Source: Pirellulales bacterium
GTDB lineage: Bacteria > Planctomycetota > Planctomycetia > Pirellulales > UBA7805
Assembly: GCA_030751095.1 (NCBI GenBank)
Contig: JASMGX010000015.1
Span: 1 to 35,941 of the forward strand
Reading direction: 5' to 3'
Length of the DNA: 35,941 nucleotides
A program made the translations under genes and the position numbers. This document shows positions 10,711 to 28,621 of the stretch, piece by piece. How positions within the stretch are numbered: position 1 is the first letter of the stretch; each line of letters starts with the position of its first letter. Under the pieces are notes generated by a model. It saw only the letters and a program-made list of their open reading frames with translations. It was not told where the DNA came from and ran no database searches.

Positions 10711-11156
10711 GAGTTGATCGAGCGCGCTGTTCGACTCACAACGACTCCACGGGAGTACATGCTCCGTCAGATTGCAATGTGCTCGTGGGATGAGAGTGCA
10801 GTCGGGCATCGGCGAATCTCTGGTGTGTCCCTTTGGTTTTTGCCGCCTGCAGGCGATCGATGGTAAACTGTGAGGATTAGCCGGTCTTTGCAATGCTGCT
10901 AGCAGTCGCCAGATATCGCAACCGATACGCCTTTTCCAAAGTGCAATATTCAGATGCTCAGAAAAGTCATGGCAGTTGCCCTGCTTTTTCACCCTAGTCT
11001 TTAATTTTCTGGGGGAAATACTTGACACTCGCATATCCCAGAATTAGCCTGACTGTTGGCCTTAATATTTCTCTTGGGAAGATGGCCGAGTTGGTTGGAT
11101 CTATCGGTCCAACACATACCTGCCGAAGAAATCAAATCCGTTAGGGAGTGCTTATC
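10711..11156 (+). other. Intergenic region upstream of the YTV protein gene
   Basis: No convincing gene is seen in this 446-base gap. A perfect TTGACA lies at 11022-11027, but the base-17 position downstream reads TAGCCT, a poor -10 box. TAATAT at 11063-11068 has no matching -35. A hairpin lies at 11094-11113 and the ribosome site AGGGAG at 11143-11148. A tRNA-like stretch near 11081 (GATGGCCGAGTTGGTT) has no acceptor stem and is not a tRNA. Confidence 0.4.
11094..11113 (+). promoter_or_regulatory. Leader hairpin of the YTV gene
   Basis: GTTGGA and TCCAAC form a perfect 6-bp stem with an 8-base loop, about 30 bases before the ribosome site. There is no T-run after it, so it is not a terminator. 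It could affect mRNA stability or translation; this is inference. Confidence 0.3.
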
Positions 11157-12125
11157 GTGATTATTCGTTCAATCGTTGTTGTGTTGGGATTGTTTGTTTC
11201 AGTGATGGTCTGCGAGACTGCGCGGGCAGCCGATGCATGCTGTGATGAAACGGTTGCCAAACCGTGTTATGTCGAGCGGACGGTAATGCGACCGCAGTAT
11301 GTCACAGAGACGCGGATGTGCACTTCGACAGAGTACCGTTATGAAACGCGAGAGCGGACAATCACGGTACAAAAATGTGTTGCTGAAACGGCAGCGCGAA
11401 CATGCGAAGTGACAGTCATGGTGCCCGAGCAGCGAACCCGGACAGTGTCTTACACGGTGAATCGTCCGGTGACGCGGACCGTTTCCCGGCAGTATCAGGT
11501 TCAAGTCCCCGTCTGGCAAAATGTTGAGCAATCCTGCACGGTACAGGTTCCCCATGTAGAAACGCGGCAAGCGCAGCGGATTGAATGTCGTCGTGTTCCC
11601 GTCACTGTGATGAAAACAGTTTGTCGAGATGCCGGTTGCTGGGTCAATCAAACGCTACAGGTACCCGGATGCGATCCCTGTGGTCGAGCGGTCATGCGGA
11701 CAGTCTGTCGTCCGGTGTACGTGCCGAAGACAGTTCAGGAGCAAGTGCCGGTTACCTGCTATAAAACCGAGCGGGTCAGTGTGCCCTATCAATACAAGGT
11801 GACTGTCTGTAAGCCGGAGGTGCGGAAGCGAATGGTGCGGGTTTGCAACTACCGCACCGAGACACGAACGTGTAATGTTCAAGTCTGTGAAATGCAGTGC
11901 GTGCCAATGACTAAGGAAGTCAAATACACTTGCATGATGCCCCAGAAAAAACAGCGTAGCTATAACGTCACCACCTACCGGATGATTCCGGAAAAGCGGG
12001 TAGAGACCTACAAAGTCTGTGTGCCCCATCAGGTGCAAAAACCGGTGAAAGTTCGTGTCTGCCGGATGGTGGCCGAAAAGATTCAGGTGCCGGTTTGCAG
12101 TGACTGCGAGGATTGCTGTTCCTAG
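11157..12125 (+). CDS. Secreted cysteine-rich YTV-type cell-surface protein
   Basis: The protein has a signal peptide (VVVLGLFVSVMVCETARAADA) and then about 300 residues of repetitive, very basic and Cys/Val/Thr/Tyr-rich sequence. Typical stretches are RTRTVSYTVNRPVTRTVSRQ, VPVTCYKTERVSVPYQYKV and RVCNYRTETRTCNVQVCEMQ. I count about 26 cysteines, with CSDCEDCCS at the end. This matches the YTV family named from Rhodopirellula baltica and linked to the planctomycete cell surface; the role is structural rather than enzymatic by current knowledge. Disulfide cross-linking outside the cell is an inference from the cysteine content. The start is moved from the ORF-track GTG 11148 to GTG 11157, because AGGGAG (11143-11148) sits eight bases before 11157 and overlaps 11148. 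Confidence 0.88.
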   Translation: MIIRSIVVVLGLFVSVMVCETARAADACCDETVAKPCYVERTVMRPQYVTETRMCTSTEYRYETRERTITVQKCVAETAARTCEVTVMVPEQRTRTVSYTVNRPVTRTVSRQYQVQVPVWQNVEQSCTVQVPHVETRQAQRIECRRVPVTVMKTVCRDAGCWVNQTLQVPGCDPCGRAVMRTVCRPVYVPKTVQEQVPVTCYKTERVSVPYQYKVTVCKPEVRKRMVRVCNYRTETRTCNVQVCEMQCVPMTKEVKYTCMMPQKKQRSYNVTTYRMIPEKRVETYKVCVPHQVQKPVKVRVCRMVAEKIQVPVCSDCEDCCS

Positions 12126-16584: not shown

Positions 16585-17091
16585 ATGGGCATTCGATTTT
16601 TTTGTCCCCAGGGGCACAAACTCAACGTCAAATCTTTTCTGGCGGGCAAGACGGGATTTTGTCCCCACTGCAATGCCAGGGTGGAGATACCGCTTACTTC
16701 CACGCGGCCGAGCAGCAAGGCGGCAGCAGAAGAACAAGTTATTCCATTGGCTCATCCTCTCGAAGAGGAAGTTGTCCTTTCAGGACCGCTGCTTGACGCC
16801 TCCGGGCCCGCCGCTGCCCCCTTCCCCGAGCAGGCGACAGGCACCATAGAGGGTCCGGACAAAGGCAAACCGACGGGTCCGGACACCTCCGAGCAGTGGT
16901 GGATCTTGTCTCAAGCCGATAACCAGCAATATGGCCCAGCTCCGACGGATCTGCTGCGACAGTGGATCCAAGAAGGCCGTGTTGTTGCCGAGACGCAGAT
17001 TCGTCCCGTTGACTCACCCAATGACCCCCATCATTGGCAAAAGGCGGTGATGCGGTTTCCGGAATATTTTTCAGGGGATGGTGCTCACTAG
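16585..17091 (+). CDS. Zinc-ribbon protein with C-terminal GYF-like domain
   Basis: The N-terminus FFCPQGHKLNVKSFLAGKTG then FCPHC forms a zinc ribbon (Cys-x3-His then Cys-x2-Cys), a recurrent planctomycete arrangement. A linker rich in Pro, Glu and Ala follows (about residues 45-105). The C-terminal 60 residues match a GYF_2-type domain: WWILSQADNQQYGPAPTDLL then WIQEGRVVAETQIRPVD. GYF-like domains usually bind proline-rich peptides. The start is ATG 16585 (MGIRFFCP); the ORF-track start at 16570 is a TTG. The ATPase gene begins 25 bases downstream, so the two are likely an operon. What the domains bind here is unknown. Confidence 0.85.
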   Translation: MGIRFFCPQGHKLNVKSFLAGKTGFCPHCNARVEIPLTSTRPSSKAAAEEQVIPLAHPLEEEVVLSGPLLDASGPAAAPFPEQATGTIEGPDKGKPTGPDTSEQWWILSQADNQQYGPAPTDLLRQWIQEGRVVAETQIRPVDSPNDPHHWQKAVMRFPEYFSGDGAH

Positions 17092-17116
17092 CTGTCGCAG
17101 CACCAATCATTTTGTC

Positions 17117-18607
17117 ATGAACATCCAGCAGTTTTTTGATCATCACGGCCTGAGTTCCAATCCTTTTGTGGAAGAAGATGCACAGACAGATTTGGTTTTT
17201 AAAGAACACTGTCTGAAAGAGATTTTTCATCCCGCCTGGGACAAGATCTATGGGAATCCCTCAGAGCCGGCGACCTCGCTGGTGTTTGGTGAAAAAGGAT
17301 CGGGTAAGACTGCGATTCGGTTGCAGATTCTCGAGCACGTGAATCAATACAATCGCGAACATGCAGGGGAACGGGTCTTTGTCATTGATTATGTCGACTT
17401 CAATCCGTTTTTGGATCGTTTTCGAGAAACTCTCTCCTCGCGACGCCGCAAGCCGGATCGTGTGCTTTCTGAGTGGAAGCTATGGGATCACATCGATGCC
17501 ATTCTCTCCTTAGGTATTACCGGTCTTGCCGACCGGATTTTAGGGGTATCCCACCCCACAGGAGTTGCCTCGGAGATTGAGAAAAGTGCAATCCGCAGCC
17601 TCGATCGCAATCAAGCGAGGGACCTCTTGTTGCTGGCCGCCTGCTACGACCAATCGACGGCGGAGACATTCAAGGGGCGGTGGCATCGCTTACGCCGGAA
17701 ATTGAGATTCAGGACTTTTTCCACATATTGGGACATTGCGCTTTGTGTACTGGTGACGTGTTCGGTGTTTGGAATGATTTTCTGGCAAGGCTGGTGGGAC
17801 ACCCTGAGAACGCCCTGGCCGTATGCAATCGTTTTAGTGAGCCTCCTGCCACGAGTTGCCCGCATCTGGAAATGGTTCTGGTCCGCTCGCCAAATCGCCA
17901 AACATGTACGGACGGGCAACCACCGGGCATGGCCGTTATGCAAAGTGCTGCTCAATTTTTCCGGATCGGAACTTGGTGGTCAGCCGCTACCAAACAAGGA
18001 TCGCACCGATGATCGCTTTGAGTTGTTCTGCAAACTACAGGCAATCTTACAGACGTTGGGATTTTCGGGTGTTTTGGTACTTGTGGACCGCGTTGATGAA
18101 CCGCATCTGATCAACGGTCGTGCCGATTTTATGAAGGCATTTCTTTGGCCGTTGCTCGATAACAAGTTGCTAAAACACCCGGGGCTTGGTTTCAAACTTC
18201 TCTTGCCGATTGAGGTGGAGCATTACCTCGAACGCGAGGACCGTGCATTTTTTCAACGTGCGCGGCTCGACAAACAGAATATGATCCCTTCACTCGAGTG
18301 GACCGGCGAGGCCTTGTACGATGTTGCCTCTGCCCGTATTCGAGCTTGTGCAAAATCGGGCAGTGAACCGGCGTTACGCGGCTGGTTTGATAGTTCTGTG
18401 AGTGAACAGCGTCTGATTGAAGCCTTTCGCTCCTTGCGGGTTCCCCGCCACCTCTTCAAGTTTCTCTACCGTTTGTTGGTGGAGCATGGCAACGCCCACA
18501 CGGATGACAATCCATCCTGGCAAATCAGCAGCGAGTTGTTTGAATCGGTTCTGGCGGTTTACCTTCGCGATCAGGATCAGGTCGATCGCGGCTTGCGTGC
18601 CGGTTAG
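17117..18607 (+). CDS. P-loop ATPase with inserted membrane helices (KAP-like)
   Basis: The 496-residue protein has Walker A FGEKGSGKTAIRLQIL (GEKGSGKT at about residues 58-65) and a Walker B-like GVLVLVDRVDEP at about 315-326. Between them two membrane helices lie at about 204-225 (DIALCVLVTCSVFGMIFW) and 233-248 (YAIVLVSLLP). Membrane helices between Walker A and B are the mark of KAP-family NTPases, so I call it KAP-like by architecture, not by similarity search. The N-terminus MNIQQFFDHHGLSSNPF also recalls the first residues of ExeA-type ATPases. The start is ATG 17117, moved from 17078, which lies inside the upstream gene. It follows the zinc-ribbon/GYF gene by 25 bases. The biological role is unknown. 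Confidence 0.8.
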   Translation: MNIQQFFDHHGLSSNPFVEEDAQTDLVFKEHCLKEIFHPAWDKIYGNPSEPATSLVFGEKGSGKTAIRLQILEHVNQYNREHAGERVFVIDYVDFNPFLDRFRETLSSRRRKPDRVLSEWKLWDHIDAILSLGITGLADRILGVSHPTGVASEIEKSAIRSLDRNQARDLLLLAACYDQSTAETFKGRWHRLRRKLRFRTFSTYWDIALCVLVTCSVFGMIFWQGWWDTLRTPWPYAIVLVSLLPRVARIWKWFWSARQIAKHVRTGNHRAWPLCKVLLNFSGSELGGQPLPNKDRTDDRFELFCKLQAILQTLGFSGVLVLVDRVDEPHLINGRADFMKAFLWPLLDNKLLKHPGLGFKLLLPIEVEHYLEREDRAFFQRARLDKQNMIPSLEWTGEALYDVASARIRACAKSGSEPALRGWFDSSVSEQRLIEAFRSLRVPRHLFKFLYRLLVEHGNAHTDDNPSWQISSELFESVLAVYLRDQDQVDRGLRAG

Positions 18608-18998
18608 TGTGATCGGGGCTCTTTGATCTTGAGAGCTGGCTGGCCCGCCGATATGCGGACAGTTCGTGGGGTACTAGGAAAAGAGTGCGGCAGGAGCCTA
18701 TACTGGGGCCGACAGGAACGCGATACCATAAAAAAAGAGAGTTCCTGCTCGCCGGGACAGGAACTCTCAAAATAGGCTGTCCGAATTACCAAATATTTTT
18801 GGAGTCCGGAGACCCACAGCCGTAGACTTGGTATCGGAGCGAACGGTGTTCTAACTTTACCCGGCTCATGGGCTGGCTCTTTGAGATGCTGAAATGGGAA
18901 CAGTGTCGAGGTCATCGGCGGTATAAGCGGTACGGTTTAACATGGCTTGTGGCGGATGATTGACGTTGGACAAACAGGCCAACGAGGAGATGTTGGAC
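18608..18998 (+). other. Intergenic region upstream of carA
   Basis: This 391-base gap carries an intrinsic terminator oriented on the minus strand (18730-18768), although no minus-strand gene is seen upstream of it. I see no clear promoter for carA. ORFs at 18525-18770 and 18604-18915 (minus) show no recognisable family. GAGGAG at 18984-18989 is the carA ribosome site. Confidence 0.4.
18730..18768 (-). terminator. Intrinsic terminator on the minus strand
   Basis: GAGAGTTCCTG and CAGGAACTCTC form a perfect 11-bp stem with a 10-base loop. On the minus strand the stem is followed by seven T, the classic intrinsic form. On the plus strand the following bases are AAAATAGG, so it does not look like a plus terminator. 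Confidence 0.75.
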
Positions 18999-20535: not shown

Positions 20536-20997
20536 ATGAACACGAAATGGATCCTGTTACCAATGACGCTGTTTGTTTTGGGGCTCGTTGTAGCTCCCGT
20601 CGCATTCTCAGCCGAGGGGCAAGCAGAGCGTGAGGTCAGTCTACTTGCGGTTGCTGATGAGGGCGCTGCCGATACGGACTGCGAGAAGGATGTTGCTGAT
20701 GAGTGCTGCGAGAAGCCTTGTATCACCTATCGCCAACGGGGCCGTTGTCGCAAAGTATGTTGCGGTTGCGATCCACCTACCAAGACCACACTCAAAGTGG
20801 ATGACCCCTGCTGCTGCAAAACCTGCTACGACATTCCCATCTGCCTGCCTGCCTGTTGCAAAGGCGACCCGTGTGTCAAAGGCCGTTGCGGCATCTGCTG
20901 TAAGGGAGTTGTTGTTTATGAGTGGTGTTGTGGTTACAAGGTAAAGGTCGTCATCAAGAAGTGTGGCGATATTGTGGTCACCAGCTACCGCTGCTGA
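20536..20997 (+). CDS. Small secreted cysteine-rich protein
   Basis: The 153-residue protein has a signal peptide (WILLPMTLFVLGLVVAPVAF ending near FSA). The mature part holds about 23 cysteines in roughly 128 residues, often in pairs or triplets (VCCGC, PCCCKTC, ACCKGDPC, GICCKG). It is also basic. There is no catalytic motif and I do not recognise a named family; it is not the YTV repeat type. The likely role is structural in the cell envelope, with disulfides or metal binding, but this is inference. The start ATG 20536 has GAGGAG 12 bases upstream. It is a single-gene unit: its own probable promoter, a leader hairpin and a strong terminator 30 bases after the stop. Confidence 0.85.
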   Translation: MNTKWILLPMTLFVLGLVVAPVAFSAEGQAEREVSLLAVADEGAADTDCEKDVADECCEKPCITYRQRGRCRKVCCGCDPPTKTTLKVDDPCCCKTCYDIPICLPACCKGDPCVKGRCGICCKGVVVYEWCCGYKVKVVIKKCGDIVVTSYRC

Positions 20998-25307: not shown

Positions 25308-26150
25308 TCAAGCGGTATTCGTGGCGGGTAATGTCGTGATGCAGCCGATGGGTGTTCCGCCCCAGGCCATAATTTGACGGTGGGTGCTTTTGGCCCAGCT
25401 TACAGATGTCAGAGCAAGCCGCAGGAGAAACAACGCTCCTCCCGAAAAAAGTGTAAGCTGATGGAGGGTTTCTCGATTCACGTTGCCACCATCGATAACA
25501 ATCAAACCAAAATGTACATTCATCAGTTCCAATTGGCTTTGAAAATCTGATTTCAAGATGGATGGTTTTCCTAGCGAGAGTGGCATCAGACAGAGGCCAG
25601 GATGGTTCGTTTGTGTGATCGAGCTTTGCCAGTCGTTGTTGGATTTTGTAGGCCGTTTTGTTGCTGTCCGTCCAAAACCATGGAAATATTTTTTGAGTCG
25701 TCCGTCGCCCGCGTCGATCGCAAGGACCGGATCCTCACTGATTTCAGCCAGAGCGACCAGCAATTGTCCTAGAATGTCGACCGTATCGGAATATCCATCC
25801 TCAGAGAGCAACAGTAGCGGGCCTGCCGTTTTGGGAAGGTGCGCAAGTAAGTTGTGGCACGTGCGGTGATACTCATTTTCCGGTGCAGGTGCAGATAGAA
25901 ACTGCGGCGATTCACCGAATCGATGGAGAGGCGCATCAACAGTAGGTGCTGCGGAACGATCGAGAGGCAGTTGGCGTGCAGCTTTGGTGACCGCCTGCTC
26001 GCCACAAAATTCCGGTTTTTCGGAGAGGCCGGGCGACTGGGCCTCTACAGGCAAAGCTTCCGTTGGCTCCTTTGCCCTGCCGGCACCGGTCGCGGCAAAC
26101 GCCGCTGCCTCGGTTTCCACCTGTTTGAGCACGTCATTGAGTTGCATCAT
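25308..26150 (-). CDS. CpsD/BY-kinase-like protein lacking the P-loop
   Basis: The C-terminal two thirds have the layout of the bacterial tyrosine kinase (CpsD/Wzc C-terminal) fold: PLLLLSEDGYSDTVDILGQL then LVALAEISEDPVLAIDAGDG, and later PGLCLMPLSLG and NVHFGLIVIDGG. The strand before the P-loop is present, but the expected Gly-Lys-Ser/Thr is replaced by EDGYSDTVDI, so ATP binding as in kinases seems unlikely. The Walker A' and B analogues are partly kept (VLAIDAGD, LIVIDGG). The N-terminal 100 residues are polar and low-complexity. No C-terminal Tyr cluster is present. Its ATG (26150) overlaps the ATPase stop by four bases, so it is translationally coupled. It may be an inactive regulator of polysaccharide synthesis; this is inference. 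Confidence 0.7.
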   Translation of the reverse strand: MMQLNDVLKQVETEAAAFAATGAGRAKEPTEALPVEAQSPGLSEKPEFCGEQAVTKAARQLPLDRSAAPTVDAPLHRFGESPQFLSAPAPENEYHRTCHNLLAHLPKTAGPLLLLSEDGYSDTVDILGQLLVALAEISEDPVLAIDAGDGRLKKYFHGFGRTATKRPTKSNNDWQSSITQTNHPGLCLMPLSLGKPSILKSDFQSQLELMNVHFGLIVIDGGNVNRETLHQLTLFSGGALFLLRLALTSVSWAKSTHRQIMAWGGTPIGCITTLPATNTA

Positions 26151-27718
26151 TGCGGATATCCACTCTCCGCCAGAAACTGCGAAGAATTTGGAGTGTTGCA
26201 GTCGTAGAGTCTGGCCAACAAATCCCGATAGTCACGTTGTCGCACCGGAATCATGGGATGCTCTCGGATCTCGGGCCATGGCTTTTTCTCTGCCGGAGAC
26301 TGCAGAGAAAGCGCATCTGCCAATATGTGTTTCTCGACCGTCTCTTCAGGCAATGACCCGGAGACATCGGTCGCCTCAAGCGGCTCGCTCGGCTGCATCC
26401 GACCGGTTGCCGTTGCCTCGAACGATTCGTTGGGAAAGTTTGCAATGCCTTCCGGGGCGCGCTCGCCAATGTCCAATCTACCCTCGGGGGCGATTTGTAT
26501 GATATTGTTCGCCTCCACCCCTACGAATTGGTCAATCGTGATCTTTTCGCAGCAAGGCACTTCGCTGTGCGCGGGCGCTTCGGTTGCGTCTGCCGGTAGT
26601 TCGGTCTGTTCGAAAACAGCATGCTCGGCAGCCTCTATGGGTGCGGCAGTCTTTGCGCCCATAGTACGATCCACAGGTGATTCGGTTTCGGTATCCAATT
26701 CTGTGCTTGGAGAAACGTCTAGAGGAGTGTCGGTGATTTCAATCGCCGCGCTTTTGCCGATAGCGCCATCAATTTGCACGGGGTCTGTTTCCATTTCTGC
26801 AACGGCGACCGAATCTCCATCAAGGCTGCCAAACTCGATAACGGCTGTGTGGGTCTCTGGGTTTTGATCCTCGCTGGAAGCGACCGTGCCACTGCCGGTC
26901 GGCAGAGGAAGCTGCTGCAAATCTGCCCAGGCAGCATCGATTTCGCTTTCTGTTAGCTGCCTGCAAGACGTGCTGGCCGCTAAAACTAACGCCTGATCGC
27001 AAAGTTGGTTGATCAATCGTGGACAGCCAGTCGCATGCCGGTGGATTGCCCGCAGCGCGGTGTCATTCCATAGTTGGTCGGGGTCTGCGCCAGCACCGGC
27101 CGTTTGTGCCCGTACATATTCGCTCGATTCCTTTGCGGTGAACGGTTCGAGATAACAGCGGGCGGAAATCCGTTGATTGAAAGAAGCCATTCTCGGTTGT
27201 GCAAAGCGCTCTTCGAGTACCGGCCCGCCCGCCATGATCAAACGGATCCGGGGATTTCCATTCCGCACCATATTGGTAAGCAGTCGCAATTCTTCAAATA
27301 AACGAGGCGGCATCGTATGGGCTTCGTCGGCGATTAGCAAGATGCCGTTTGGATGGGCCCCTTCCGGATGCAGGTGGTCAATCAGCGAGAGTCGCAATTC
27401 GCCTTCTTGAAGGCGGCGATGGGGGGCTCCTAATTGATACAGCAGGGCTTGAAGAAGTTCTTTGCAGGTGGTCAATCGCAGGTTGGCCAAAAGCAGCGGA
27501 GTTAACTGGCCAGAAAAATGTTCCGCCAGCACCTCACAAAGAAGGGTCTTCCCCATACCGGTTGCCCCGATGAGGAGTCCACATCCCTCGGCCCGTTCGA
27601 TACAGCGGGTTAGTTTGCTCCTGGCACTTTCAATGGCTGCAGCAGGAAAATAAAGACTCGTTTGTGGCGCAGCAAGAAAAGGACGTGAGGAAAATCCAAA
27701 AAAAGACTCGTACATCAT
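26147..27718 (-). CDS. ExeA-like AAA ATPase with long acidic C-terminal extension
   Basis: The first 270 residues are an ExeA/GspA-type ATPase: MMYESFFGFSSRPFLAAPQT, Walker A LIGATGMGKTLLCEVLAEHF, Walker B GILLIADEAHTMP, and ISARCYLEPFTAKESSEYV. ExeA-type ATPases occur in secretion and exopolysaccharide loci. Residues about 270-523 are a Glu/Pro/Thr-rich, probably disordered tail of about 250 residues, far longer than usual. There are two tandem ATG codons (27718 and 27715), so either may be used. The start directly follows the TAA of the Wzz-like gene (zero gap), and the end overlaps the kinase-like gene by four bases. The three genes are therefore one translationally coupled unit, where this ATPase may drive or sense glycan export. 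Confidence 0.85.
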   Translation of the reverse strand: MMYESFFGFSSRPFLAAPQTSLYFPAAAIESARSKLTRCIERAEGCGLLIGATGMGKTLLCEVLAEHFSGQLTPLLLANLRLTTCKELLQALLYQLGAPHRRLQEGELRLSLIDHLHPEGAHPNGILLIADEAHTMPPRLFEELRLLTNMVRNGNPRIRLIMAGGPVLEERFAQPRMASFNQRISARCYLEPFTAKESSEYVRAQTAGAGADPDQLWNDTALRAIHRHATGCPRLINQLCDQALVLAASTSCRQLTESEIDAAWADLQQLPLPTGSGTVASSEDQNPETHTAVIEFGSLDGDSVAVAEMETDPVQIDGAIGKSAAIEITDTPLDVSPSTELDTETESPVDRTMGAKTAAPIEAAEHAVFEQTELPADATEAPAHSEVPCCEKITIDQFVGVEANNIIQIAPEGRLDIGERAPEGIANFPNESFEATATGRMQPSEPLEATDVSGSLPEETVEKHILADALSLQSPAEKKPWPEIREHPMIPVRQRDYRDLLARLYDCNTPNSSQFLAESGYPQ

Positions 27719-28621
27719 TTAGCTCCATGGAAGTTTTACGAGGTGTCGCACAGCGTCAGCTAACGCGGAGACAGGTTGGCTGAGAAAATGGTTGGCAAAA
27801 CTTTTGTCGAGCACAGATGCCAAAAGGACGGCAAGGAGCATCCCGCACAGAATCCATTCGCTCATCGATAACAAGACGTCAAACAATTGTGATCGGGCCG
27901 CTGGCGGACTTTGCCGACGTGGATTTGATTCCCCAATGGTTCCTAGCAGCGGTACTTTCCAGAAGGTTTTGGCCATCTGGTTGGTCTCGACCGTGGCAGT
28001 TCGGCCGTTACTGTATACGGCGCAAATCGCGGCTATCACACCGGCAAGACTGGCCGAAAGAAACGTGACTAAAGGGGTGGTGCGGTATGTTCGCTCGGTG
28101 CTCGAGGCGGGAACGATGTGCCAGGCGGTTTCCCCAATCGCGATCTCTTGGGCAAAGGCACGATTTTCAAATCGCTTACAAGTCAGCCAGTTGCCAAGAT
28201 GGTTGACAAAAGCGATGGAGGTGTCGGGATTGTTGCTGGTGAACGAAAGAGAAAAATTGACAAAGAGGGGTGTGGAATCGGGCTGTATTCGAAGAGCAAC
28301 TTGGTCCCTTAACCGCGCTACATCGAGACTCTTTGCGCCAGGGATGCCATCCCGACACAAATCGGCGGCGGTCTGCTCGAGGGGAAGCGCGCGACAGATT
28401 GTCTGCTGTAGGCGCAATCCGTCAGACCAGGGGTTTTGTCGGTTGCTGCAGACCGCCGTCAATTGTGCTACGGCGACAAACCGATCTGAATGCAGTCTGC
28501 CAAAAGCCAATACCAGCAGAAACGCTGCCAAACCGAGTGTGATGGCAATGTATCTGCCGCTCCGCTGCGGACTATGTTTGTCCGACAGATGCCGTTTTGT
28601 TTTCGATCTGCTAGCAGTCAT
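27719..28621 (-). CDS. Wzz/chain-length-determinant-like membrane protein
   Basis: I infer a polysaccharide co-polymerase-type protein from topology and neighbours. A basic N-terminus is followed by a membrane helix (about residues 24-43, YIAITLGLAAFLLVLAFGRL), a 140-residue outer domain, and a second helix at about 187-207 (TPLVTFLSASLAGVIAAICA). A third hydrophobic helix lies at about 260-277 (ILCGMLLAVLLASVL), more than the two of a typical Wzz. Sequence similarity to Wzz is low by eye; PDSTPLFVNFSLSFTSNNPD is the only stretch that recalls it. No ATP motif is present, so the kinase part is on the separate downstream gene. The start ATG 28621 lacks a clear ribosome site. It is the first gene of the coupled trio. 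Confidence 0.6.
   Translation of the reverse strand: MTASRSKTKRHLSDKHSPQRSGRYIAITLGLAAFLLVLAFGRLHSDRFVAVAQLTAVCSNRQNPWSDGLRLQQTICRALPLEQTAADLCRDGIPGAKSLDVARLRDQVALRIQPDSTPLFVNFSLSFTSNNPDTSIAFVNHLGNWLTCKRFENRAFAQEIAIGETAWHIVPASSTERTYRTTPLVTFLSASLAGVIAAICAVYSNGRTATVETNQMAKTFWKVPLLGTIGESNPRRQSPPAARSQLFDVLLSMSEWILCGMLLAVLLASVLDKSFANHFLSQPVSALADAVRHLVKLPWS

Follow-up and report, generated by a model that had tools for sequence, protein, structure and literature searches.

Planctomycetes have an unusual cell biology, and the locus considered here raises the question of whether two of their adjacent genes work as a unit. In the window, by which we mean the whole 35,941-nucleotide stretch of Pirellulales DNA that was analysed, a gene for a zinc-ribbon/GYF protein is followed by one for a membrane P-loop ATPase. 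An earlier note on this DNA, made from the sequence alone, took the two for a pair, assigned the ATPase to the KAP NTPases with a possible link to defence, and proposed an undescribed two-gene system. We therefore address what the ATPase is, how it is distributed and inherited, and how closely the GYF gene is tied to it.

Anatomy of the two-gene locus

The two genes are 25 bases apart on the + strand, as had been read from the sequence, and it holds that no function is described for a membrane-inserted P-loop ATPase encoded beside a zinc-ribbon/GYF protein. The features of the locus are as follows.

16585-17091, + strand: zinc-ribbon and degenerate GYF_2 protein, 168 aa, without a transmembrane tail (open reading frame; GYF_2 match, E 3e-4)
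16603-16671, + strand: zinc ribbon C7, H11, C26, C29 (conserved in alignment A3)
16897-17058, + strand: GYF_2 region, its WREGW part replaced by RPVDSPNDPHHW (alignment and scores against a relative)
17117-18607, + strand: membrane P-loop ATPase, 496 aa, Sll1717/DS41-like (open reading frame, profile matches, homologues)
17288-17311, + strand: Walker A GEKGSGKT, residues 58-65 (from the sequence; kept in the 77 homologues)
17729-17866, + strand: predicted membrane hairpin, residues about 205-250 (hydropathy, 77 homologues; helices in the model)
18071-18103, + strand: Walker B-like VLVLVDRVDEP, residues 319-329 (region of D324, D327 and E328 conserved, 77 homologues)
18437-18466, + strand: C-terminal RVPRHLFKFL, putatively sensor-2-like (PR and the following residues conserved)

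The ATPase start at 17117 is backed by homologues, and an alternative in-frame ATG at 17078 would overlap the GYF gene. Between the window and the sister species at locus L082 the GYF protein is 82% identical and the ATPase 97%, with dN/dS values of 0.33 and 0.055 respectively.

The zinc ribbon of the first protein was borne out, its four ligand positions being invariant or swapped for another ligand in eight aligned relatives. The GYF domain stood only in part. A GYF_2-like region is present, and relatives of the gene (L036 and L053) match the Pfam family GYF_2 (PF14237) above its cut-off of 25.8 bits, one relative scoring 39.4 bits, but the window copy reaches 20.9 bits because its C-terminal W-R-E-G-W part has been replaced. 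The window copy also differs from these GYF_2 proteins in having lost its membrane tail, a C-terminal hydrophobic helix that occurs in most GYF relatives from other genera and is missing in the window genus and at L035. At 16897-17058 we thus observe a GYF domain lacking its W-R-E-G-W part, while the adjoining ATPase is strongly conserved. Literature searches for GYF proteins or small RNAs of planctomycetes found nothing direct.

In the second protein, hydropathy supports the membrane helices that had been placed between Walker A and Walker B, the second of them in only some homologues. The window ATPase has a hydrophobic segment at about residues 205-225 and a weaker one at about 231-250, ahead of the Walker B-like VLVDRVDEP (321-329). 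Some hydrophobic segment lies between the Walker motifs in all 77 homologues; the first is found in nearly all of them and the second rises above threshold in only some. The position of the segment is kept across the 77 homologues and its sequence is not conserved, a pattern that suggests an anchor rather than a binding site. AlphaFold2 modelling from an alignment of six rows gave a mean pLDDT of 53.7 and left the P-loop unresolved, so fold and topology stay predictions; helices at 204-224 and 234-262 were the better part of this otherwise poor model.

Family of the ATPase

KAP NTPases are described as having a membrane segment between their Walker motifs, and the window ATPase resembles them in being a P-loop protein with such a segment, as judged by hydropathy only. 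The profile check spoke otherwise. In a Pfam search the ATPase gave weak AAA matches and no KAP match (PF07693) at E values up to 1, and PF07693 found no match anywhere in genome G000. The ATPase carries DRVDEP where the ten KAP proteins that we fetched carry DDLDRC or near variants, and hhalign against a profile of ten planctomycete KAP members gave 27.9% over 48 Walker A columns. We accordingly rejected the KAP identity put forward in the earlier note and regard it as very improbable, even though the insert and the likely common root described below speak for it.

The nearest named families are Sll1717 and DS41. The best NCBIfam match is NF053860, DS41_1_antiphage (E 9e-27), with similar N-terminal and Walker B/C-terminal regions, scoring 94 bits where the cut-off is 370. 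DS-41 is an antiphage system from DefensePredictor (PMC13092281). The window ATPase differs from that family in being near-core and vertically inherited and in its predicted hairpin, the insert being stated for the window protein alone. NF047389, ATPase_Sll1717, matches at E 6.5e-15 and 55.2 bits against a cut-off of 75. Likenesses to this family are a DRLDE or DQLDE Walker B in two of the four members and a C-terminal PR motif; hhalign with a four-member profile gave 93.4% over 341 columns, a value to be read with the control below. The four planctomycete members examined have no membrane hairpin at the corresponding position. Two homologues of the ATPase from family f22 reach 75-79 bits against NF047389, carrying added stretches.

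Single Sll1717 members aligned with the ATPase at 15-74%, and a control of the KAP profile against the Sll1717 profile gave 93.2%. From this control a common root is likely, and the Sll1717 and DS41 families themselves appear to be related to KAP; together with the spread of the single members it indicates that the Sll1717/KAP group is broad. Within it the ATPase appears nearer to the Sll1717/DS41 P-loop ATPases, and by the curated cut-offs it belongs to neither family. Sequence searches of PADLOC, PHROGs and the PDB returned weak Walker A-type matches only.

The window holds a further P-loop protein, an ExeA-like ATPase (26147-27718, - strand) in a cluster at 25308-28621, where two neighbours look, from reading of the sequence, like exopolysaccharide chain-length or export proteins. 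Kinship between the two ATPases was considered and rejected (1.1%, nothing beyond Walker A). Repetitive, cysteine-rich secreted proteins are encoded at 11148-12125 and 20536-20997, presumably similar to those described from the cell walls of planctomycetes.

Distribution, inheritance and selection

The ATPase is present in 164 of 197 genomes of the order (131 of the 160 good ones), nearly always as one full-length copy. Over all samples, nearly 280 homologues came to light. A class-wide sample gave 150 positive genomes of 249, including most of families f21 and f22, and the ATPase was not found in the listed genomes of families f23-f26. In a phylum sample it occurs in 34 of 246 genomes, among them deeper lineages at 29-41% identity, and it thus spans several planctomycete orders; a contig scan with a single protein query gave five loci, in Lacipirellula limnantheis and other Pirellulaceae. 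On a protein tree of 74 sequences, 19 changes suffice to account for the 20 host families, which is as few as there can be (mean after shuffling, 56.5), and from this we take inheritance to be essentially vertical. Its absence from a minority of the order and from the listed f23-f26 genomes means that the ATPase is not universally needed. Distribution, copy number, tree and dN/dS are together the behaviour of a core gene and not of an accessory defence gene.

These data also bear on the suggested link to defence, which they disfavour. One could read the protein as a DS41/Sll1717-type ATPase of antiphage defence or abortive infection that became fixed in planctomycetes, and its best named family does include an antiphage protein, a point that has to be set against any housekeeping reading. 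We nevertheless consider this improbable: besides the sub-threshold score, the gene is single copy, vertical and under strong purifying selection, whereas Sll1717 relatives are patchy in the same class (NF047389 above cut-off in 8 of 79 genomes, in two of which the match is this very gene). NF053860 was above cut-off in none of 79 class genomes. Nor is there a defence island, since PADLOC on ten neighbours gave weak coiled-coil or P-loop matches only; the surroundings are ordinary genes, e.g., carA.

The reading we prefer, to which we give a probability of roughly 0.55, is that this is a near-core, membrane-anchored P-loop ATPase with a housekeeping role, for which the GYF protein is not required.

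Genomic neighbourhood

Clustering of neighbour genes defined two further families, SEC and LIP, the latter a small lipoprotein. SEC is a family of secreted proteins, some 190 aa long and with no clear match in Pfam, found in 155 of the 197 genomes of the order and usually encoded just upstream of the ATPase. Examples, from alignment A2, are:

L036:8537-9106: SEC; also in L047, L048, L053 and others

Among the matches listed, the ATPase and GYF genes lie within 5 kb of each other in 56 of the 98 genomes of the order that have both. The corresponding counts are 90 of 121 for SEC with the ATPase and 51 of 80 for SEC with GYF. The commonest gene order is GYF, SEC, ATPase.

Would this make GYF protein and ATPase a dedicated pair, in which the GYF protein would bind partners rich in proline and pass them on to the membrane ATPase? 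The linkage exceeds the roughly 1% expected by chance (an estimate for 5 Mb genomes with a few GYF paralogues each), and 49 of the 56 listed pairs are on the same strand, with GYF upstream in all 49; the short gap in the window points the same way. Against this, SEC often lies in between and is the commoner neighbour of the ATPase, and GYF and SEC stand together away from the ATPase in 16 genomes, several of them without an ATPase among the matches listed. None of the 35 loci of other lineages has GYF, SEC or LIP near the ATPase, as far as profiles built from this order, which may miss remote relatives, can detect, and no ATPase neighbour is conserved across orders. Moreover, the window GYF protein is degenerate and fast-evolving. 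A dedicated pair of this kind is thus unlikely.

What remains of the proposed pairing is a linkage that exceeds chance in roughly half of the order: the GYF gene is a neighbour only loosely tied to the ATPase, and in this order alone. The earlier note's undescribed two-gene system gives way to a widespread ATPase with that neighbour beside it. In the window genus SEC no longer lies between the two genes, and more distant SEC relatives occur elsewhere in the genome.

A structured RNA candidate beside carA

Between the ATPase and carA the window contains a candidate structured RNA of 95 nt (folding z-score -4.6). It has two hairpins, of which the second is a predicted intrinsic terminator.

18824-18730, - strand: 95-nt structured RNA candidate
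18832-18859, - strand: promoter-like TAAAGT...CCGATA element, conserved upstream of the RNA

Its sequence is nearly invariant in the window genus, and Rfam holds no match to it. A covariance model gave matches in 46 of 298 class genomes, nearly always a single one, and all but one of these genomes are in this order; the exception, genome G214 (locus L246), lacks both the core motif and carA and looks spurious. One genome of another class (L245) also has a match, there too with carA divergent, as at nearly every locus examined. With five spurious reverse-strand matches left out, 19 of the 25 pairs have changes on both sides and none of 500 shuffles reaches any of the measures, although fitting the alignment to the structure works in the structure's favour. 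The alignment is 96% paired, compared with 37-54% in slid controls. Upstream, TAAAGT and CCGATA are conserved at near-fixed spacing, with the RNA start about 7 nt further on; we take the element to resemble a sigma-28 promoter, but its spacing is longer. The RNA does not belong to the ATPase gene, since outside G058 and the window genus it sits at carA without the ATPase. We regard it as an undescribed candidate supported by covariation.

Proposed role and significance

If our preferred reading of a housekeeping, membrane-anchored ATPase is right, the 496-aa protein would be among the near-core genes of most Planctomycetia. In the predicted topology its nucleotide-binding and C-terminal helical domains would lie on the cytosolic side, with the short hairpin between Walker A and B holding it to the membrane. 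Most likely it would hydrolyse ATP and act, at the cytosolic membrane face, as an ATP-driven switch or as a machine that oligomerises, serving a housekeeping process, and its work would probably not need the GYF protein. In this order the zinc-ribbon/GYF protein, usually tail-anchored in a membrane, and SEC, both often encoded upstream, may be accessory partners. In the window genus SEC has left the locus and the GYF protein is probably soluble, and in the window species the GYF domain is degenerate.

It is possible, and we offer it tentatively, that a P-loop family whose best-known member is an antiphage protein has a membrane-anchored branch which is now a fixed, single-copy cell-biology component of Planctomycetia, serving a process peculiar to these bacteria, e.g., membrane or envelope organisation. 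For the annotation of such proteins, a membrane insert between the Walker motifs does not by itself justify the label KAP or defence gene. A published screen in Planctopirus limnophila listed 108 essential proteins of unknown function that are special to the phylum (PMC10632474), and a near-core, single-copy, strongly selected membrane ATPase offers a concrete target of this sort.
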